This document shows, piece after piece, positions 4,355-15,628 of a stretch of DNA of 25,088 nt. The DNA is taken from the IMG/VR virus record IMGVR_UViG_3300037587_000099, positions 1 through 25,088 of that record; one strand, given 5' to 3'. A program made the translations under genes and the position numbers. The DNA is from a virus. The first letter of the stretch is position 1; each line of letters begins with the position of its first letter. The notes below the pieces were generated by a model. The model did not search any database. It had not been told where the DNA came from and saw nothing but the letters and a program-made list of their open reading frames with translations.

Positions 4355-6982
4355 TTAAACTGTTATGTTATCTGTGTTGACTCGTCTGCCTGATGTGGCT
4401 CCAACGTCTTGAGTTATCGTGTCTAGTAAATTATTTGTATACATCATTTTACCAGCCCCACTGTAGATATTCTTAATTGTGATAGAGCCATTGCTGTATG
4501 TGCTATGAGAGAAATCCATAAAAATCTCATTAGTTCCTGATGCGTTTGGCATATCAATTATCATCCCGCTAGCGCCGTCAATCTCTACATTCCTTATTTC
4601 AGCTTTGGCTTTTCCTGTTAGCATTCTATTTGAATATATTCCAGTGCTAACTATGTTGGTATGCTCGCCGCCATCAATAATAAAGTAACTATTATTAACT
4701 CCGTCTAAATGTCTAACACCAAACGAATTAGTATCGGTACCCACTAATTTAATTGAAGCGTCAACGCCAAGCTCAATACCTGCTGTCGTGCCGGTTATTG
4801 ATCCGCCCGTCATATTAACCGCACCGGCATTTATTAGGCTGCTGTTTATCTTGCGTAGGTGTGTGTTTTCTAAGTAAAGCGTTCTGCCAGTGAAGTTAGC
4901 ATCGGTTAACGCCTGTCCTGAATTAAATACTAATGATGAGTTTTTAATCACATTCTCGCGCAATGATAGTGTTGTCCTACCTAATGCGGTTGTTGTGCTT
5001 AAGAGGCTAAATCCAGACAGGGTAGTACCATCATCATCAACAGTTAAGCCGTCTGCCTGAAAACCTTGAGAATTGGCAAGCACACGTTTAAATCTGGAGT
5101 TATAAACCGACAGGTCAATCACATTTCTAGCAGCGGTTAAGTTGGTTCCGTTGCCATTTATAATTGTTATCCGCTTGCAGGACTCACCAAACGACGCCCC
5201 GCTATTTCCGATTGAATGCCAGCCGTGGCAATTAGTATAACTAATATCGTGTTCGTAAGATCCATGATTAGTGTATGCGCCATCAGCCGTGTTGGTATCA
5301 CCACAGTTGGTAACATTGCAATAAACTGATTTGGTGTGATCAATGATGTGTCGCGCTTCATACCCTGATAGTTTGTGAGTGTCACATCTTAGGCTGTACG
5401 ACCATTGAGTATGATAACCCTGGCCTCCACCTGTCGCTTGGGGCCTTTCAACCCTACCGTTGGATGATGTACAGTCAGTATTGTACTGTGCGAAAACTAT
5501 GGGGTTTCTGAATTTAACGCCGGTTATGCCTGATGTGTGGCAGTTGTAAGCAAATGCTATACTGACGGCTGATGCGTAATCTGACGTGTCACCTGATGTC
5601 GGAGACTTGTCTGTAATTGTAAAGTTGCGAATGTTTATGTCATGAACCGGTACAACATTCATATAAGTAATACTTAGTCCGGAGGGTATGGTCCAGCCGC
5701 TACGATAATCAATTGCTACCTCGTTTGTTCCTGTCACCCCTATGAATTTTGGCATTAGAGAAAACGCTGGTAGGGTTGGGCTAGAGGATGTACTTCCGGC
5801 AAAGACAAACATATAAGTGTCATCTTTACCCGTAAAATTACTATCTAAACCAACTGGGTATGAATTTTCTTCAAACTCGTCAATATCAGAAAGTAACACA
5901 TGGGTATCAATAGTTGTTCCTAAAACCCCTAGCGCACTAAATACTCCCCAATCTCGCCCCTCATACGTTATGACCCCTGCTGTGCCATTCCAGCTAAAAT
6001 TACACCCTTGCCCGTCAAAGTTTAGATTGTTAGGCATTCCCACCTGGTCAGTTATTAAATAAGTGGATGTTGGATTTCCCAATATGAATGTGCCGAAATT
6101 CCATGCCGCCCTAACCCTGATTGTGTCATCATTTACGTCATCACCAAACGCGCCGAATTGCTCAAATGACATTACGGTTTCTTTTTGTAATTTAGCCTGT
6201 AGCGATGATCCTGTTAAAGTTAGCGTTCCATCCGTCATATCGCCAGCGCCTGTTAATGCCTCCACTACTTGCCAGTTGCATAAAACAGGTGTGTTAAATA
6301 AATATGTTATAACTTTATCGCCTACAACAAGATCGGGGCTTAAGATCATTTGTGAAACGCTAGTAAATTCAATTACACCGTCTATTGATATTGACGTTAC
6401 CGGCGCTAAAAGTCCATATTGAACTTCGACATCTTCACCACCTAAAAATGCCTCAGACACGGTAATGGTTCCGGTACCTGATGAATACGTGTAAGCGCCT
6501 TTACTCTGCTCCTGAAGTGCGCCATCAATAATTAAATTTAGGCTTCTCGGTGCGTCTGGAACGCTTATTGATGTTTGGGCTGCCGTCACGACTACAGGTA
6601 ACTTTTTAATATCTAAATCAAAGTCTTCTGCTGATAATACAATTTTTAAAAAGGTTATTGCTGTGATATTTATTACAAAGTCGCCCACAAAAGAAACTTG
6701 ATATACTATCTTTGAGTTGGAATCAACTACTAACTGACCTTTCGTTATATCATTCTCTGCGTTAAAGTCTTTTGCTCTGTCCCATGTTCCAGCCGCTGCA
6801 ATATAAATACCGTTTTCTGCTTTGTCATTTTGTGATTTAACCAAAACGCGATCACAAGCAACAAGCTGAACACCCGAAATAAGCGGCAAGCCCTGAAGTG
6901 CAATATTTAGCGTAGTGGCAACAACTACCGGCGCTTTCATGCCTTCTTTTAATGTAACGCCCAGTCGTGTTCTTTGAACCAT
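4355..6982 (-). CDS. Tail spike/fibre with adaptor N-terminus and pectate-lyase-like beta-helix
   Basis: The 875-aa product starts at ATG 6982 behind AGGA, 8 bases after the stop of the 2104-aa gene. The N-terminal part (about 40-115) contains DRVLVKSQNDKAENGIYI and GTWDRAKDF, a module frequent at the start of phage fibres and spikes and presumed to attach them to the tail. A small beta domain (about 128-190) follows. FGAFGDDVNDDT (276-287) is then the classic opening of the pectate-lyase-3 beta-helix family, followed by some 550 residues of repetitive strand/turn sequence with many Asn and His. No S74 domain is present at its C-terminus. It probably binds or cleaves host capsule or O-antigen. 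Being first of two spikes, it may be the one fixed to the tail; this is inference. Confidence 0.8.
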   Translation of the reverse strand: MVQRTRLGVTLKEGMKAPVVVATTLNIALQGLPLISGVQLVACDRVLVKSQNDKAENGIYIAAAGTWDRAKDFNAENDITKGQLVVDSNSKIVYQVSFVGDFVINITAITFLKIVLSAEDFDLDIKKLPVVVTAAQTSISVPDAPRSLNLIIDGALQEQSKGAYTYSSGTGTITVSEAFLGGEDVEVQYGLLAPVTSISIDGVIEFTSVSQMILSPDLVVGDKVITYLFNTPVLCNWQVVEALTGAGDMTDGTLTLTGSSLQAKLQKETVMSFEQFGAFGDDVNDDTIRVRAAWNFGTFILGNPTSTYLITDQVGMPNNLNFDGQGCNFSWNGTAGVITYEGRDWGVFSALGVLGTTIDTHVLLSDIDEFEENSYPVGLDSNFTGKDDTYMFVFAGSTSSSPTLPAFSLMPKFIGVTGTNEVAIDYRSGWTIPSGLSITYMNVVPVHDINIRNFTITDKSPTSGDTSDYASAVSIAFAYNCHTSGITGVKFRNPIVFAQYNTDCTSSNGRVERPQATGGGQGYHTQWSYSLRCDTHKLSGYEARHIIDHTKSVYCNVTNCGDTNTADGAYTNHGSYEHDISYTNCHGWHSIGNSGASFGESCKRITIINGNGTNLTAARNVIDLSVYNSRFKRVLANSQGFQADGLTVDDDGTTLSGFSLLSTTTALGRTTLSLRENVIKNSSLVFNSGQALTDANFTGRTLYLENTHLRKINSSLINAGAVNMTGGSITGTTAGIELGVDASIKLVGTDTNSFGVRHLDGVNNSYFIIDGGEHTNIVSTGIYSNRMLTGKAKAEIRNVEIDGASGMIIDMPNASGTNEIFMDFSHSTYSNGSITIKNIYSGAGKMMYTNNLLDTITQDVGATSGRRVNTDNITV

Positions 6983-6990
6983 AATAATTC

Positions 6991-9900
6991 CTATTTGTTT
7001 CTATCCGGGCCCTCAGTGACCGCTTGATAAATTTTCTTAAGTGGTGAGCCTGTTTCTTTGCCCTGCGTGTTGCTGTCGATAAAGTCCATGATCCGGGTTA
7101 CATTGCCAACGCCAGGAACAGGAACGACTGTGGTAACAAGCTTGATTATATCACTTGTTCCCTTTAATGTCGTTTGCTTACCTTCAGCCAGGGAAACCAA
7201 TTCATTTATAAACCGAGATGGCACTTCTTGACCGCCGCCGACAATCGTCTTAGGAGCAAACCCACTGAATGAACCGGCTATCTCTCTGACAAACGGAAGT
7301 GTTCCAGCCATGAAGTAAACATACCGCTTAACTAACCACTCAGTGAATGCTTCATCGCTGTCATCGTCTGGATAATCCATAATAATCACAGCCGATAAAA
7401 CAGCCGTTATAATTGGTGTGGCAAATAAAGCTTTGAAACTGTCCATGTCGAATTTCTGCAAACCACTGGTAGACTTGTAAATTCGCTGGTAGTAAGCATT
7501 AAACCAGCTACCGAATAAGGTAAATATACGCATCCACTCGGTTTGATTTTTACTGAACCATGCGCCTAAGTGTAAGTCACTACCTGATCCAACAGACTCG
7601 GCCACGGCACTGTCAGCCTCGCTAGCTGCGCGTTTGTCATCGCCATGAAGCTCAAACCTTGCTTCGTATTTTGCCAGCCAAGTTGGGTAAGCTAAAGTCG
7701 CGTCAACCATGGTCTGAAACATAAAACCCTTACGCCCTAATTTATCCCAGGCATGATGGAAGGATCCTTTAATTTCAATGCTTCTTAAAAAGTCGCTGGC
7801 TTCTTTGTTTACTAACGATGCTCTGTCTCTCATAAACTCTGACCGGTCATCAACAAAATTAATCAGATCTTGCCTTTCGTTTGAGATAAATCGTTGGGCC
7901 GCGCCAACAAAAGGAACCACTCCAACTTCCTCAACTACCGGCGCAATCGCTGATACCTGCTGAACCACGTTACGAATACTGAAAGCAAGATGTTTATAGA
8001 CAGCCGCCTTTCTGAGTAACTTGGCAATGCCAGCTAATGCCTGATCGCTTTCGCGCTGCTGTCTATTCGCCACTGTGCTTTCAATGTTGCCCACAAACGC
8101 CTTGTAGAAGCCCTCACCGTGATAAGTCTCAATTGCTGCCACGATATCAGGATGGTTAATAATACTCTGTATCTTGCGCCCTACTTCAGCAAAGGCTATA
8201 AAATGAGTGTTCTCTTCTAAAGCTTGGCTAATATTTGTGGTGTACAGCTTAACCGGCTTACCGCCGCCCCCAACTCTTGCATGTAACGAACCGGCTTTAG
8301 TTGGTACCACTGAGGTTAAATCTGTTTTCCTCGCCTCTTCTAATTTCTCTGTTTTGGTAGACGAATAGATTAACCGCATGTGCCCGCCGGTCATCTCAAT
8401 GCCGTTAATAGCAAATGGTGTAGGGTCAAGTTTGGTTGGTGAGACTCCGTACATATTGACGGATGCTTTACTTAGTTCCGGCCATTGCGTTTCATTGACC
8501 TTCCACACTGAGTTAACCGTTCTGATTTGGTCGTTAGTTAAGTCGGCAAGAATTCGGCTCACATCGCCATCAGTTAAACCGTAACCATCTCGTATGGCAT
8601 CACGGCTTGACTCGGTTCCCCAGTAGACGGCCATCATAAAGCGAGACTCTGTGTTAACGTCTAAAGTCAGACCGCTATCAAGTACATAGGTTTTATCATC
8701 AGTCCTCACCAATCCTATGCGATGAATATCACCTAACTCGGTTTCGAATATTTCATATAACTCACGGCCTAATCTGATTTTCTCGCTGTTGGCAGCTTCG
8801 ATCACCCGGTAGATCTCTTTGTCAGCCAAGCCCTCTTCTTTCTGCTCCTTGAAATTACCATCGAGTTTTCTGATTAAGTTTCTAAGCGATGGGATTTTAT
8901 TAACTAAAGTGCTGAATTTAATCTTGGCCTCAAGTCCTTTTTGCGGAATCCCCCTGGTGCCTTTAACTTTGTTGCCACCGTTTTTAATAATCGAATCTTT
9001 GATTGACTCAACTAAAGCCGCTTGCTCTGCTTTGCCTAAGTCAGACATTACCCCGCCAACATAACGAAGGTGGCGCAACATCTCATGTAACCCTTGCAGG
9101 TCTTGAGCGGTTAAATCATTAAAAGTCGGAACCACCAGGTTAGGCAATGCACCGTCTTGCTTGGCTTGAAGTGCTTTAATCAGGTTGATGTCGAGCAATT
9201 CAATGGCGACATATTGATTTGGATCATTAATCTGCGTGTTGTACCAGTCAACAATCTGACCTAAAGCTAACGCCCGGTCTGTATTCACTCTCATATCATA
9301 CAAATTAGCCAGGGTTTTCATGTTGTGAACGTACTCAGGGTTAACCTGTTTGGTGTTGTATTCTCGTGTTTGGGTAGACTTGATATACTTACGCTGCTTG
9401 ACCATTCGCTCTTTAGTGTCAACGGCCTCACGGTACATATAGTGGTTAGCTAATTGCTGAACCTTGGCAATGTATTGGCTTTCCTTATCTGTGGCTGTCA
9501 CGGCTTGCTGAGCCGCTTTAATCTCTGCCCTGTAATACTTGTTAGGCTTTATTTCCTTAAAGTTCATTGAGCCGATTAAAGTCTTAGCTTCAGCTTTTAA
9601 ATAGGCCCGGTTAATTTTGTTGGCTCGCTCTGGTTTGAGCGCTTTGATTTCGTCCAGAAGTAACTGTGCTTGCGCATCATTATGGATCGCTTCACGCGCT
9701 TCATCCTCAATCGAGCCGTCATTTAAAATGTCTCCATACTTTTCAACCATACGAGCTTCAGCCGCATCATTGGCCGCTTTCTTTAATGGTTCAACACTGA
9801 CCATCTCATTAATCATAGCTTCAACGTTGGAATATCCATGCATCTCGGAATACTCTTGTGGATCAACGCCACCCTTCTTTAATTTGCCGATTAACCGCCC

Positions 9901-12900
9901 TGGCATCTTGGTGAAGCCCATTATCTCTTTAACGGCATCATAGTCCATCGGGAACTCTTTGGTGTCGTTTAAAATGCTGTACACAGGCTCTTGAGATAAC
10001 CGCTCTGTCTCCTCGTCAATTAACGGTTGCTTTTCCTCGTTCCACTCAGCAGTTTTGCGCCGGGTTAACTCTTTCATCAACTTAGTGTCGAGCGTTTCAG
10101 TGGCGCGATTCTTGGCTTTTAACTGCCTTGCCTGATATGCCTCCCACTCTGCATCGCTCATTCCTGACTGTTCTTTAGATTTAAAGAATTGGTCATAAGC
10201 AGGGTTAGCTGTTGCTAGTTCAATCTCAGCTTCAGTGGCTAACATGCGATCAAACACTTCGGTTATCTCAGGGGTTAACTCGGCACGTTGTAACCTTGGA
10301 TCGGTCAATGATTGATAGATACGGGTTAGCCAGCGCTTAAATGCTGCAAAAGCATCTCTAAGGGCTAACGATGGCGCTTTACCTTCGCGCAAGTAAACCT
10401 CGAATGCTTCAGCAAATTTTTCGTGTTGCTCCCGTCCAATATTAGGGAAGCTATCTACACCTAAGAAATTAAGAATTGCTTGCTGGTCATCGCCAAAATA
10501 TTTAACACCAAACTCGTTAGATAGCTTTGCTTCCATATCCAAAAACAAATGCGCCGACTCGTGAAGGAATGACGATAGGTCGCTTGCTTGGTGAAGTTTG
10601 ATTATAGATTCTTCGGGTAATAACTGGATTGTGGCGCGAGTTTTTGTGTCAGCTTCTTGCTTTAATGTTACCGGCTCGCGGTACATTGACTCGCTAATTT
10701 CAAAGTCTTTGTTTTTGCCCTTGTTTTCCACGAAACCAAATCGCTTGTAAAATCCAATAAGTCGTTTCTTGTTGCCACCAAAATCAGCGGATGGCGTTAA
10801 TGATATAGTCTTACCGGTAGAGTCAGCGTATTGATTTAACTGGTTCATAACCGCTGTGCCAACGCCTGTATCTCGCTGGTCATCCGGTACGATTATTTTA
10901 TCTAGCGTTATCTTGTCGCCCTTTTCATTAACGGTTATCTTAACACCTTGGGCTTTTGCGGATTGCTTTATTGAGTCAAGTGTTGCGCCAGCCTGAGCCA
11001 ATAACACCGCGCTTTCTTTGAGGTCGGGATCGAAGGCTGCGTTTACTGAGCGGATTTTGGATGGGTCGAAAGTTAATGCTATTTCTAAGTCTTTAACGGT
11101 ATAAACAATCCCATCCTTACCGCTATCGCTGGCGTGTCTAGCTTCGTTGCCTAAAACATCATCCAGATCCAGCACCTCAAAAACTTCATCTGATGATAAA
11201 CTATCTACCCAATCATTAAACGGCTGATCTTGGTAAGATTCAAACGAGTCATAAACCTCTTTTAAATGTTGATCACCATCTATTATTTCATAATTATTTT
11301 TATCTAAATAAAGAGGTATTACATCGCCCCCGGTACCAGTAAACGATTCAGCATCCTCTTTGAGATTTATTGTGTATATGGCTGGTTGTCCTTGCGTACC
11401 ATAGTTTTCACCAAACCTAGTCAAATCAAACTCTTTAATATCAAGAGCTGTTTCGCTTCCATGATACATTACTTTATCAGTATCAAAACCCATATCTTTA
11501 GCGCGACTAATTCGCGCATCGGTTGACATATCCAAGCCTTTAGAAATCGCTTGATCACGTTCTTGTTGCTCTAAAACATCACCGCCAACTTGTTCAGCAG
11601 CGGGACCAACAATAGATAGCCCCATCATTTCGTAGATTTCTTTAGGCGACTTACCGGTTTGTTCAGCTTTAACCGTGACGTATGCGGGAATGATCGCCGC
11701 GCTATAACGTGCGGTTGCCTCGCTTTGTCTGCCAGTGGCGACTATCTGATCTTTAACTTCTTCGTAAATGGTTTCTGATTCGGTTTTTAATTCCTGGTTC
11801 TTTTCGGCACGCTCAAGCAATGACTTGATGGTTAAATCTTCGTCCTTTTCTATTTGTGCCGGGGTTAATGTTTCGTCGCTCATCTTCATATGAGGACGCA
11901 AGGTTGACATTAAATCTTCGTTGGGCGCGATGTCGGCGGCGAATTGCTCCATATCAATAGCAACATCAGTTCCTAAACCAGTGATTTGATTGGTGATATA
12001 AGGCGGTAATTCAACGCCTGAATTAACAACTTCAATTAACGGGTCACTGGAAATCAACACTTGCTTGTCAGTATCAAGACCCTTCAGAAACATTCTAAAC
12101 CGATCTTCTTTGCGGCCCCTGGTCAAGCTTGATTGTGCGAAAGCAGCAATAGTGTCAATGGTGTTTTGCTCACCAGCAGACATTAAAGCAGTTTCTACAT
12201 TACGCTGTGCGCGACTTGCTAAAGCTTCGACTGTTGCAGTGGTACCACGAATGATACCGCCCATGCCGCCACCAGCAACTAAACCGGCTAATTGGCGATC
12301 AGCCATTTCAGTAAGCGACAGGTCTTTTTTGGTGCCAACGGTTTCACCTAAATATTCAATGCCCTCTTGGATGAATTCAGTGCCAGCCTCGACAGCCGCC
12401 GCGCCGCCCGTTGCTTTAAGCGCTGTTTTTAAATCGGTTACGCCACCTTTGCCTAATACGACTTTACCGGCCACTCTTTCAATTAGAGACACTGCGACAG
12501 CAGGAACCAATGAAGTAACCAGATCTAAACTGGTAACGTCTTTACGCTCATCGTTCTTTGCGCGTTCTTCTGCTATTTCCTCGGTTCGAGATGAAACGTA
12601 AGCGGGTAAGGTATAAACCGCCGCTAACATATCAGGCAAAGATTGAACGCCTTGCTCTACAATATAACCAGCTAAGGTCTTAGGGTTCATATCGCCTTTG
12701 AATCTCTCCCAGGTAAAGCTCGGTTGATAACCAAAGCCGTCACCCTCTGAAATAGCCTTGCCGATACCTTGAAGTAAATTAGGTGAGTCACTTGGAATGT
12801 CCCATGACCAGCTAACGCCATCATCACCAATGATAATACCGGGGTTTGGAACGCCCTTACTATCCAGGTAATCTTCGAAGTTTTTACCAATGGTGCCGGT

Positions 12901-13305
12901 GAATTCAATTAAGTTACCGGTTAAAGTGTTGACCCGGCTTAATGCGCCCCGGCCAATGTTAGAAAAGAACCCTATTTCTGAATCTCGTACAGCCCCTTCA
13001 ATGCCTTTTAAGTTATCGATGTCATCAATTGATACTCTGCTATTCCTGTCATCAGTTAAGTACTTAGATAGCTTAGGATAGCCCGTTGTATCGATTAAAT
13101 CAGTTCGCTCTCTGCGCTTAATCTCAGGCAGGTTGTTTTCCACGGTATCGGTTGGTAGATTGCGAGACTCAGCAAGCGTTATAATCTCAGCTTGTTGATC
13201 AGGGTTCATGAAAGAGGCGCGATTAATGTTAGGACGTGCGTTATCTGCTGGGCCTAATTGCTCATCAAGTAGCGCATCAATGTTAATCTCTTTGTTTTTT
13301 GGCAT
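6991..13305 (-). CDS. Giant polyvalent internal virion protein with ART, GNAT and zincin domains
   Basis: This is the largest gene in the window (2104 aa), starting 23 bases inside the preceding gene's end. Visible regions: Gly/Ala-rich hydrophobic patches (about 262-285, 341-363), candidates for membrane insertion. ADP-ribosyltransferase-like domain of the ART-PolyVal type (about 600-760): GFDTDKVMYHGS, AIYT, GDVIPLYL, then FDPSKIRSVNAAFDPD. GNAT-like acetyltransferase (about 785-877): RDTGVG acetyl-CoA loop (811-816) and RLIGFYKRFGFVE. Zincin (about 903-1000): HESAH (His915, Glu916, His919) with Glu966 or Glu969 as possible third ligand. A long charged helical region follows, then an LPD38-like C-terminus (about 1890-1945, FTLFGSWFNAYY) and hydrophobic segments 1957-1978 and 1995-2017. 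It occupies the place of T7 gp16, so it is likely packed in the head and ejected. Its activities are inferred from motifs. Confidence 0.85.
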   Translation of the reverse strand: MPKNKEINIDALLDEQLGPADNARPNINRASFMNPDQQAEIITLAESRNLPTDTVENNLPEIKRRERTDLIDTTGYPKLSKYLTDDRNSRVSIDDIDNLKGIEGAVRDSEIGFFSNIGRGALSRVNTLTGNLIEFTGTIGKNFEDYLDSKGVPNPGIIIGDDGVSWSWDIPSDSPNLLQGIGKAISEGDGFGYQPSFTWERFKGDMNPKTLAGYIVEQGVQSLPDMLAAVYTLPAYVSSRTEEIAEERAKNDERKDVTSLDLVTSLVPAVAVSLIERVAGKVVLGKGGVTDLKTALKATGGAAAVEAGTEFIQEGIEYLGETVGTKKDLSLTEMADRQLAGLVAGGGMGGIIRGTTATVEALASRAQRNVETALMSAGEQNTIDTIAAFAQSSLTRGRKEDRFRMFLKGLDTDKQVLISSDPLIEVVNSGVELPPYITNQITGLGTDVAIDMEQFAADIAPNEDLMSTLRPHMKMSDETLTPAQIEKDEDLTIKSLLERAEKNQELKTESETIYEEVKDQIVATGRQSEATARYSAAIIPAYVTVKAEQTGKSPKEIYEMMGLSIVGPAAEQVGGDVLEQQERDQAISKGLDMSTDARISRAKDMGFDTDKVMYHGSETALDIKEFDLTRFGENYGTQGQPAIYTINLKEDAESFTGTGGDVIPLYLDKNNYEIIDGDQHLKEVYDSFESYQDQPFNDWVDSLSSDEVFEVLDLDDVLGNEARHASDSGKDGIVYTVKDLEIALTFDPSKIRSVNAAFDPDLKESAVLLAQAGATLDSIKQSAKAQGVKITVNEKGDKITLDKIIVPDDQRDTGVGTAVMNQLNQYADSTGKTISLTPSADFGGNKKRLIGFYKRFGFVENKGKNKDFEISESMYREPVTLKQEADTKTRATIQLLPEESIIKLHQASDLSSFLHESAHLFLDMEAKLSNEFGVKYFGDDQQAILNFLGVDSFPNIGREQHEKFAEAFEVYLREGKAPSLALRDAFAAFKRWLTRIYQSLTDPRLQRAELTPEITEVFDRMLATEAEIELATANPAYDQFFKSKEQSGMSDAEWEAYQARQLKAKNRATETLDTKLMKELTRRKTAEWNEEKQPLIDEETERLSQEPVYSILNDTKEFPMDYDAVKEIMGFTKMPGRLIGKLKKGGVDPQEYSEMHGYSNVEAMINEMVSVEPLKKAANDAAEARMVEKYGDILNDGSIEDEAREAIHNDAQAQLLLDEIKALKPERANKINRAYLKAEAKTLIGSMNFKEIKPNKYYRAEIKAAQQAVTATDKESQYIAKVQQLANHYMYREAVDTKERMVKQRKYIKSTQTREYNTKQVNPEYVHNMKTLANLYDMRVNTDRALALGQIVDWYNTQINDPNQYVAIELLDINLIKALQAKQDGALPNLVVPTFNDLTAQDLQGLHEMLRHLRYVGGVMSDLGKAEQAALVESIKDSIIKNGGNKVKGTRGIPQKGLEAKIKFSTLVNKIPSLRNLIRKLDGNFKEQKEEGLADKEIYRVIEAANSEKIRLGRELYEIFETELGDIHRIGLVRTDDKTYVLDSGLTLDVNTESRFMMAVYWGTESSRDAIRDGYGLTDGDVSRILADLTNDQIRTVNSVWKVNETQWPELSKASVNMYGVSPTKLDPTPFAINGIEMTGGHMRLIYSSTKTEKLEEARKTDLTSVVPTKAGSLHARVGGGGKPVKLYTTNISQALEENTHFIAFAEVGRKIQSIINHPDIVAAIETYHGEGFYKAFVGNIESTVANRQQRESDQALAGIAKLLRKAAVYKHLAFSIRNVVQQVSAIAPVVEEVGVVPFVGAAQRFISNERQDLINFVDDRSEFMRDRASLVNKEASDFLRSIEIKGSFHHAWDKLGRKGFMFQTMVDATLAYPTWLAKYEARFELHGDDKRAASEADSAVAESVGSGSDLHLGAWFSKNQTEWMRIFTLFGSWFNAYYQRIYKSTSGLQKFDMDSFKALFATPIITAVLSAVIIMDYPDDDSDEAFTEWLVKRYVYFMAGTLPFVREIAGSFSGFAPKTIVGGGQEVPSRFINELVSLAEGKQTTLKGTSDIIKLVTTVVPVPGVGNVTRIMDFIDSNTQGKETGSPLKKIYQAVTEGPDRNK

Positions 13306-14854
13306 TCTGGTAAGTCTCTAAGAATAATTCTGGTGAAGGATCTACACCCCTATTAAAGTACGCATCAACAATCGCTCTGAACAATTCAGGATCATCATCT
13401 TCAATCGTGCCTATAACTTGCTGCTTCTCGTCATCTGTCATTTGGAACAACGGCTTGGTGCCGCCCCACCACCAGCTAGTATCAAATTGCAATAATAACC
13501 GGTCCATTTGTTTATCGACTTGATCATCTGGCGGTAACTTGCCTTGGTTTTCAAATTGGTAGTTCATGTACCAATCATCCATATCGCCTGATAGTTTTGA
13601 TTTAGCTGTTTTGTCTACTATCTGCGCGTTCTGAAGTTTAGCGTTCATGCGCTGTTGGGTGGATAGCATTGACTTAATCTCAACCGGCATCTCTCCCTTC
13701 TGGCTTATTTTTGACCACTGGTTAAATGATGTTTCATTTAACTTGTCGGTGTTGGCCATGAAGAATTCGCGCAACTCACGATACTTTCCGGACTGCTCTA
13801 ATCCGTGAAGTGTATCAATTGTGTCTCTGTCGCTTACTGAGCGAGACTTACCAACTGATGAAGCCTGAGCGTTGAATAAGCTATTTTGCTGCTGTGGCGT
13901 TAATACAGCGAGCTTGTCGGCGGGAATGTCATCAACAGTAATATCACCCTGCCGAATAGGAAGGAAGAACTCTTCAAACACTTCTGAGCGCTCTTCGGTT
14001 TCGATTTCCTGTTGCTTGCCGTACATGTAATCAAACCTGCGCTCTACTTCTTTACGTAATCGCTCGTCCTTAATATTGCCTGACTTTTCCATGGCCTCGC
14101 TACGGTCCATATCTGCCAGTAAGTACTCATCGACAGTATCAACAGCCTTTTGTGCAAAGCTTGCCTCTTCTGCCTGCCGGGTAAGTAATGCGCGAGTATC
14201 ACTAGGTAAATCATTAGCCCATGGCTGCTTTAATGCTTCAACCCGGTCTTTAGGTGCCATCATCTTTAATCGACCGGTAGCCGCATCGGTTTTCCATTGC
14301 TGCTTGATTTTACCGGCCTGCTCGTTAGAGTAATAACCCATCGATACAGCAGAGTCTAACCTGGCGTTGACTGTTTGCCTTGCGGTAGTCACATCTTCAG
14401 GCGAGCCGGTTAAGGTCATTTCTCGCAAGCTGTTAAGGCTATCGTTTACACTATTGCGCTCGAAGTCTTTTTCCTTGCCAAAAGCCACATCTTTCATGCG
14501 CTCTTTGCCCTGCTCTATGCGTAATCTGTTTCTTTGCAAAAACTCAGCTCTGACTCGTGGGTTAGTTATACTCATAGATACTTTGGCGAGACCTTTGTCC
14601 ACGTTGGACGTGTAGCGCTCGCCAATAGTTTTATAGTCTTCATCTTGATCATAAGCGTTATCCTGTTTGTTTTTAAGGATAAGGAAGTCTGATTCTGCTT
14701 TGGATGATTCATAGCGATCGCGCTCGTCAACCATGCCCCGTAGCGCCTGAGCTAACTCAGTTGGGGCAAAATTACGAGTATCAATAGAGGTTACTTGACG
14801 CTGGCCGCTGGCGATTGTTCTTGATATGCTTGCCGCGCTAGGTATCTTAGCCAC
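13283..14854 (-). CDS. Internal virion protein, T7 gp15-position (523 aa)
   Basis: A long, highly charged, almost wholly helical protein with no signal or membrane segment, lying between a gp14-like gene and the giant polyvalent gene: the place of the ejection-core protein gp15 in T7-like and related podoviruses. Helical repeat-like stretches include YYSNEQAGKIKQQW (about 174-187), and a Trp cluster DTSWWWGG lies near the C-terminus. The start is GTG at 14854, 6 bases after an AGGGGG site; a TTG one codon upstream (14857) is also possible. The first codons overlap the preceding gene's stop by 8 bases and its last codons overlap the next gene by 23, so all three are coupled. A role in a core or tunnel is inferred from context. 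Confidence 0.75.
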   Translation of the reverse strand: MAKIPSAASISRTIASGQRQVTSIDTRNFAPTELAQALRGMVDERDRYESSKAESDFLILKNKQDNAYDQDEDYKTIGERYTSNVDKGLAKVSMSITNPRVRAEFLQRNRLRIEQGKERMKDVAFGKEKDFERNSVNDSLNSLREMTLTGSPEDVTTARQTVNARLDSAVSMGYYSNEQAGKIKQQWKTDAATGRLKMMAPKDRVEALKQPWANDLPSDTRALLTRQAEEASFAQKAVDTVDEYLLADMDRSEAMEKSGNIKDERLRKEVERRFDYMYGKQQEIETEERSEVFEEFFLPIRQGDITVDDIPADKLAVLTPQQQNSLFNAQASSVGKSRSVSDRDTIDTLHGLEQSGKYRELREFFMANTDKLNETSFNQWSKISQKGEMPVEIKSMLSTQQRMNAKLQNAQIVDKTAKSKLSGDMDDWYMNYQFENQGKLPPDDQVDKQMDRLLLQFDTSWWWGGTKPLFQMTDDEKQQVIGTIEDDDPELFRAIVDAYFNRGVDPSPELFLETYQNAKKQRD

Positions 14855-15293
14855 CAAAAACCCCCTCTTGAGCGCCGGTTAGTATTGTACTTAGGGCTTT
14901 GCGCTGGCCTTTTTTCTTGGCCATTTTACCTTCAATTCTTACGCTCTTAGCTGCCAGATCCATTCCTTTCGCTTGCTCTTCAGCCTCGAATAATGCAGTC
15001 AAAGCGTTGTAATCTGTAGCCTGTTTTAGCCCTGCTAATTGCTCAATAGAGCCAGCATCAAAAGCGCCACCGCCCGCCGCCATCTGAGCGATAGCGTCTG
15101 ACTCAAGTACCCGGCCCTTGCGAAGTCCTTCCTGTGTTTGTCTTGTGCCTGATGCGCGTTTAGCTTTGGCGTTTCGTTCTATTTGTTGAGCCTTGAACTT
15201 AGCGGCTTTATCGGCACCGCCACCACCAACTAAGTTTGACACTGAGCTGAATAGTGTAGAGCCAAGCCCTAGCGGATCTTTTATGGAATCCAT
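14847..15293 (-). CDS. T7 gp14-like internal virion core protein
   Basis: The 148-aa product has a Gly-rich N-terminal hydrophobic stretch (about 8-27, GLGSTLFSSVSNLVGGGG), then Ala/Lys/Arg/Gln-rich helices with an AGGGAF turn near the middle and a Lys-rich tail. This texture (short apolar N-terminus followed by a long Ala-rich coiled region) is typical of the gp14 family, whose T7 member leaves the virion during infection and forms a pore in the outer membrane. The start ATG 15293 overlaps the upstream gene by 13 bases, with GGAA upstream. The neighbouring order gp13-like, this gene, 523-aa and 2104-aa supports the assignment better than the sequence alone. Confidence 0.7.
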   Translation of the reverse strand: MDSIKDPLGLGSTLFSSVSNLVGGGGADKAAKFKAQQIERNAKAKRASGTRQTQEGLRKGRVLESDAIAQMAAGGGAFDAGSIEQLAGLKQATDYNALTALFEAEEQAKGMDLAAKSVRIEGKMAKKKGQRKALSTILTGAQEGVFGG

Positions 15294-15628
15294 ACATATT
15301 TCCTATCATTCATTAGCTCAAACCCTATTCGTTCAAGTACTTTAGTTGAATTATACTCTTTTTCGCTAGCGATTGCATAAACCGGCATGTCGTAGTTTTT
15401 AAGAATATCCTTAAACGTGTTGATGACTTCAATTATTGTTTTAGGATGCTTTCTTAATTCGTCTTCCATTCTACTAAAAGCCTGTAGCGGCCTAGTGTGA
15501 AGAACACCGGCAATGCCTATAACTTTACCGTCTAATTCAACAGCGTAGCCCCTAACAGTCTTACCCATGCTATTAAATTCGCCTAAGTCAGATTTTTTAA
15601 GAGGTCGTATTTTAGGAGTCTCTGACAT
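15281..15628 (-). CDS. GNAT-fold virion-associated protein, T7 gp13-like
   Basis: This 115-aa protein opens with IRPLKKSDLGEF, the usual first strand and helix of GNAT acetyltransferases. It continues with TVRGYAVELDGKVIGIAGVL, the central strands beta2-beta4, then VYAIASEKEYNSTKVLERIGF, the closing strand/helix with the common xxxLexiGF ending. The classical Q/RxxGxG/A acetyl-CoA loop is not clear and the protein is short, so catalysis is doubtful. T7 gp13, a virion assembly protein at the same relative position, has the same kind of reduced GNAT fold. Its start (ATG 15628) overlaps the nozzle gene by 17 bases. A structural or assembly role is more likely than enzymatic acetylation. Confidence 0.75.
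   Translation of the reverse strand: MSETPKIRPLKKSDLGEFNSMGKTVRGYAVELDGKVIGIAGVLHTRPLQAFSRMEDELRKHPKTIIEVINTFKDILKNYDMPVYAIASEKEYNSTKVLERIGFELMNDRKYVWIP

Follow-up and report, generated by a model that had tools for sequence, protein, structure and literature searches.

Polyvalent proteins, in which several enzyme domains share a single chain, were proposed largely on the basis of their architecture. In the description by Iyer et al. in 2017 (PMC5512222), they are large multi-enzyme proteins encoded in virion gene blocks, with ADP-ribosyltransferase (ART) domains of the ART-PolyVal family, a GNAT family that usually neighbours the ART, zincin-like metallopeptidases (MPTases) and LPD22 domains, and mosaicism is reported for one of them, the Helicobacter protein jhp1044. 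The same features were found in a giant gene in a 25,088-nucleotide stretch of viral DNA (IMG/VR record IMGVR_UViG_3300037587_000099, positions 1 to 25,088; hereafter the window), which is likely a fragment. The gene (window 6991–13305, minus strand, as are the other window features given below) is a single intact frame of 2104 aa without an internal stop, and matched phrog_9880 over residues 313–2042 (E 9e-201). A library search among viral proteins returned chiefly other large phage proteins.

Other systems that resemble this locus include T7 gp16 and the PhiM1 ejectosome, with which the gene shares its place past the other internal virion proteins and ahead of the fibres. In transcription order, genes for the head-tail connector (phrog_332), the major head protein (phrog_3437) and the tail (phrog_394 and phrog_376) are followed by those for internal virion proteins (phrog_308, a weak match, and phrog_418), a gene in the gp15 place, the giant gene and two tail fibre genes. 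As this is the T7 order, the gp16 place in the ejection core that an earlier note on this DNA had assigned to the gene is correct. The window protein differs from gp16 and the PhiM1 protein in having a zincin and further enzymes instead of a transglycosylase or lysozyme domain, neither of which was found in it. The three motif sets named in the earlier note all lie in the one frame, YHGS at residue 614 (ART-like), RDTGVG at 811 with FYKRFGF at 852 (GNAT-like) and HESAH at 915 (zincin-like), and a FDPSKIRS motif is found at residue 746. An ART-PolyVal, a GNAT and an HExxH domain thus occur within one frame encoded amid virion genes, between those for internal virion proteins and tail fibres, and the placement in the polyvalent class stands.

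We favour, with a probability of about 0.7, the reading that this T7-like podophage has, in the gp16 place, an ejection protein made of a chassis and an exchangeable enzyme slot, the delivered cargo of which would act on the host. The chassis would comprise an N-module (LPD22 and residues 110–575), the zincin and a long helical core, with the slot, here filled by an ART and a compact GNAT, lying between the N-module and the zincin.

Comparison with a close relative, L002 (IMGVR_UViG_3300028610_000064), revealed a cargo swap. The DNA on the two sides of the cargo was 85.2% and 83.8% identical to the window, the N-modules were 87% identical, and the zincin and core 92% identical. Between them were two inner stretches with no detectable DNA similarity, one of 386 nt in the window (the ART body) versus 509 nt in L002 and the other of 326 nt (the GNAT) versus 1385 nt. 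These are separated by an 85-nt island (10986–11070), 90.6% identical to L002 by blastn, that encodes the last strand of the ART and a short sequence, LLAQ, of a type considered below. The slot in L002 is occupied by PBECR5 (E 5e-17), a predicted nuclease, and by an ART-PolyVal unlike that of the window, with a score under the curated cut-off (E 6e-6). Beyond the gene, DNA similarity to L002 stops shortly past its end (window 6714–6990). The tail fibre genes of the two phages (875 and 800 aa) are unlike, so that both the payload and the receptor-binding proteins differ between them.

Other relatives also differed in their cargo. In L087, the N-module was 74% and the core 63% identical to those of the window protein, and the slot held a third ART together with PBECR5. 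Four cultured Vibrio phages (1.185.O, PS25B.1, 1.021.A and MZH0603) have the gene order and chassis in common, at 66–97% identity. Their proteins, annotated as hypothetical or coil-containing, have the same zincin-core as the window protein but different cargo or none. The slot of 1.185.O contained a GNAT 62% identical to that of the window and another domain, while in PS25B.1 precisely the GNAT was missing and the other domain stood alone. A short unrelated insert was found in 1.021.A, and in MZH0603 the N-module directly adjoins the zincin with no cargo. The zincin-core is also that of Bbp10 of phage BPP-1, for which the published mass spectrometry of virions named capsid bands alone (PMC3863775). 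In the 117 proteins whose N-module and zincin-core share a frame, slot length had a median of 311 aa and a range of 10 to 2344 aa, with six slots essentially empty (28 aa or less). Seven loci encode the two modules in separate frames, though one of these (L085) is at a contig edge and another (L206) may be a contig-edge case. The contents of the other slots included ART, GNAT, PBECR3/5, MuF_C, GGDEF, HATPase and Zeta toxin domains, the GGDEF and HATPase entries having been assigned to L089 and L084 by reading their sequences. The GGDEF-like domain (SGDEFYV) lies in the slot of L089:9947-16189, and a nucleotide-signalling enzyme as a phage payload would be unusual. In L084:4379-12811, which encodes the C-terminal half of an ejection protein divided in two, the chain opens with an ATPase region of GHKL/Hsp90 type and contains HExxH a second time (HEIAH, residue 577).

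The zincin-like domain (residues 890–1010; window 10276–10638) belongs, on these comparisons, with the chassis. H915, E916, H919, E962 and E969 were invariant in an alignment of 22 relatives. HESAH is followed by a downstream HExxAxxFE helix, giving the HExxH and Glu-helix combination of polyvalent MPTases, and in the predicted model of the region these two helices (541–563 and 589–605 in model numbering) accompany a hairpin of two strands. The motif set named in the earlier note was recovered, with invariant predicted metal-ligand residues, and the domain is likely a zincin, but it had no Pfam match and its profile match to lethal factor, to whose superfamily the MPTases of polyvalent proteins have been linked (PMC5512222), was weak (E 0.11). 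Structure comparison gave neprilysin at Z 4.0. In the fold searches for the ART and the zincin, GNAT entries filled the listed matches. The domain was retained in the cargo-free proteins (MZH0603, L126, L130, L213, L119 and L115). As every relative examined keeps the zincin, while even close relatives have exchanged or lack the ART and GNAT, we count the zincin as part of the chassis and the other two enzymes as exchangeable cargo. Cargo release cannot be the sole task of the zincin, since proteins with empty slots keep it.

This distribution bears on the proposal in the earlier note that the ART, GNAT and zincin form a single three-enzyme anti-host set, delivered with the virion and acting jointly. 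The three motif sets do share one gp16-place protein, and an effector role is allowed for some MPTases (PMC5512222). However, the zincin is as conserved as the core and persists without cargo, and swaps of the ART and GNAT leave it in place, which makes a joint set unlikely. Two relatives show other arrangements of these elements. In L044:9893-15742, an ART-like sequence, RLYHGGEPGDATGPLYFSTQQSYAQG, interrupts the zincin after its HExxH helix and before its Glu helix, which marks another place of insertion. The slot of L092:1-6675, from a contig that was binned as Muricauda and appears to be phage-derived, includes, upstream of the zincin of the chassis, a further motif that resembles those of metallopeptidases, HEIQH.

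A short motif, hydrophobic-x-Gln (Phi-x-Q), recurs at the module borders. In the window protein it is found as VLEQ (residues 577–580; window 11566–11577), at the edge of a segment with a predicted-structure confidence (pLDDT) below 50, as LLAQ (residues 768–771; 10993–11004), inside such a segment, and as TLKQ (residues 880–883; 10657–10668) at the zincin border. Segments with pLDDT below 50 account for 11% of the modelled residues, and each of the three tags falls within one or at its edge. At the border between cargo and zincin, the tag was present within a 42-residue stretch in 143 of 147 non-redundant proteins (chance mean 72, maximum 95, from 500 random draws in the same proteins) and in all 21 proteins found without use of the HExxH pattern. 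Leu, Phe and Tyr at position −2 and Phe at −1 were enriched there relative to other Gln residues. Of 25 internal GNATs of this family, 23 had a tag no more than 25 residues after them (background 0.33). A tag also followed all 22 core-family ARTs (background 0.52), and none of 13 solo GNATs that end their protein, the tails of which are short. Of 133 relatives, 96 had it at the end of the N-module (mean of 56 and maximum of 72 in the control), and empty slots retain a single copy. As a pattern it is loose, was picked after inspection of the sequences and is found inside folded parts too, so that only its enrichment at borders is meaningful. A role as a DNA recombination site was rejected, as 93 L-x-Q tags use 68 different 9-mers with leucine codons near background, and this variety points to selection on the protein. 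A second candidate border tag, R-F/Y-S, was seen in other polyvalent proteins as single examples with no overall enrichment.

We infer that the tags act as flexible joints; perhaps they are also putative cleavage sites of the zincin. Cutting by the zincin at Phi-x-Q, before packaging or after entry, would free the N-module, the cargo domains and the core, and is compatible with the chassis-and-slot reading. Several observations fit such autoprocessing: enrichment of the tag at each type of border and in or beside flexible segments, its absence after solo GNATs, its single retention in empty slots and the existence of phages that encode the two halves as separate genes divided at the slot. Among described proteins, P1 DdrB carries an MPTase and is cleaved, but the N4 virion RNA polymerase, which also has one, is packaged uncut (PMC5512222). 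With the looseness of the motif, its occurrence in folded regions and the simpler account that Gln-rich linkers may offer, we hold autoprocessing only tentatively. The broader version, in which the gp16-type protein of a large podophage group is a general self-cutting injection vehicle whose zincin cleaves Phi-x-Q at each module border, appears somewhat more doubtful still. If it were true, any enzyme bounded by tags could be loaded, delivered and released, and payloads could be traded between phages like cassettes.

The cargo of the window protein could be identified with more certainty than the zincin. The ART-PolyVal domain (residues 611–755; window 11041–11475) matched Pfam PF18760 (E 4.7e-9), scoring 37.6 bits against a curated cut-off of 31.2 when the segment 590–785 was scanned alone, which confirms the ART-like domain of the earlier note. 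Its predicted catalytic residues, H615, Y644 and D731, sit in the expected motifs (strands 1, 2 and 5, placed from a low-confidence model) and agree with the H-Y-D positions given for the family (PMC5512222). T4 Alt, an injected ART that travels in the phage head (PMC5512222), offers an analogy for how the window ART would act, although Alt belongs to the R-S-E clade and the window ART has the H-Y-D set of ART-PolyVal.

The compact GNAT (residues 778–877; window 10675–10974), in the place of which L002 has PBECR5, matched Pfam Acetyltransf_7 at E 3e-4, below the cut-off of that model. It was 47–64% identical to 21 other phage GNATs, and its predicted fold gave Z 10.9 to AcrVA5, 9.2–9.3 to RimI and 8–9 to other GNATs. 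The acetyl-CoA motif R-x-x-G-x-G is present as R811, G814 and G816. The fold and the identity to phage GNATs bear out this domain as well. AcrVA5 was the best structural match (92 of 96 residues, 2.7 Å), and both proteins are compact, at about 100 aa, but they share 18% identity, and by sequence AcrVA5 (E 0.088) ranked behind about 20 other chains, including many other GNATs. As the sequence does not favour AcrVA5, the structural match is no evidence for an anti-CRISPR function, and that candidate was rejected. The same highly conserved GNAT, with an ENKGKNKDF signature, was also found as a free-standing protein of 125–137 aa in other phages (L042, L046, L047, L048, L051, L053, L058–L060 and L064).

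The slot domains might instead be inactive fillers or folding aids that serve packing or size and have no effect on the host. That cultured MZH0603 tolerates an empty slot and that slot length varies more than 200-fold would fit this view. It is nonetheless very unlikely, as the active-site residues are retained in both the ART (H615, Y644, D731) and the GNAT (RxxGxG), the GNAT is the most conserved part (47–64%) between otherwise different proteins, and those slot contents that can be named are chiefly conflict-system enzymes.

The helical C-terminal core (residues 1011–2104; window 6994–10275) was predicted to be nearly all helix (pLDDT 77.5). Neither a Foldseek search of the core model against the PDB (E ≤ 0.001) nor a search of the core profile against PDB sequences gave a match. 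With a second structure aligner, a stretch at about residues 1470–1759 (window 8029–8898) had 8vb2_A, from the PhiM1 ejectosome, as its best match, ranked first of 487 chains; the match agrees with the position of the gene but is weak (206 residues aligned at 4.0 Å). The LPD38-like tail that the earlier note had placed at this end was not recovered, as there was no match to Pfam PF18857 even at E ≤ 10, while the positive controls (proteins of L025 and L043) scored 1e-41 or better. At the other end of the protein, an LPD22 domain that the note did not include was found (residues 29–108; window 12982–13221; Pfam PF18834, E 6.4e-14, above the cut-off), and LPD22 is present in the N-terminal parts of 36 of 46 relatives. 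The rest of the N-module (residues about 110–575; window 11581–12978) includes a part, residues 370–560, predicted with pLDDT of about 90.

Several points weigh against the chassis-and-slot reading. At Z 6.6, the match of the core to the ejectosome scores too low for a match between helical proteins to be trusted, and we infer the presence of the protein in virions. The ART was modelled at low confidence (pLDDT about 60), and the QRDTGVG motif of the predicted GNAT contains a D at a position that is G in many relatives. HExxH was present in 171 of 171 core open reading frames, though two scans for relatives were partly selected on that pattern; it was also found in 21 of 21 non-redundant proteins from scans made without it. 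Bacterial domain linkers are often rich in Gln, and the border tag may therefore reflect linker composition and not a recognition site.

If the protein is packaged and delivered as we propose, the helical core would most likely assemble within the virion core and exit with the DNA. The slot enzymes would then reach the cytoplasm, where they may ADP-ribosylate and acetylate host proteins at the onset of infection, in the manner of T4 Alt. The zincin would be a peptidase of the chassis that may cut the chain at Phi-x-Q tags before or after entry.

Polyvalent proteins, the pairing of ART and GNAT, MPTases as possible autoproteases and mosaicism are already published (PMC5512222), and the window protein belongs to this known class. 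The passages of that paper that were searched describe neither a slot fixed between N-module and zincin-core nor empty slots or a border tag. The limited literature searched gave no account of such a slot with empty states in near-identical phages, of a zincin that belongs to the chassis or of the Phi-x-Q tag. The slot, its empty state and the tag usefully extend what has been described. Chassis that are nearly identical but hold different payloads or none amount to a natural experiment that separates the delivery machine from the effector, and the cultured Vibrio phages make this distinction testable. The border tag offers a concrete prediction for the role of the metallopeptidase.

Part of the N-module (residues 112–337) recurs at 34% identity in Vibrio phage 41E34.2 (L255, 5001–5741), in a protein annotated as a methyltransferase whose phages carry packaged-DNA-stabilisation genes. 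The N-module is therefore partly common to another type of podophage. In the window, the neighbouring ejection-core gene in the gp15 place (13283–14857) matched phrog_10475 (E 4e-14), and the gp14-place gene (14847–15293) matched the internal virion protein family phrog_418 (E 6e-18). The small internal virion protein next to it (15281–15628; phrog_308, E 8e-4) had a weak match to the acyltransferase-type Gly_acyl_tr_C (E 0.03) and a C-terminal GNAT-like motif, so that the ejection core has another acetyltransferase-like protein besides the giant one.

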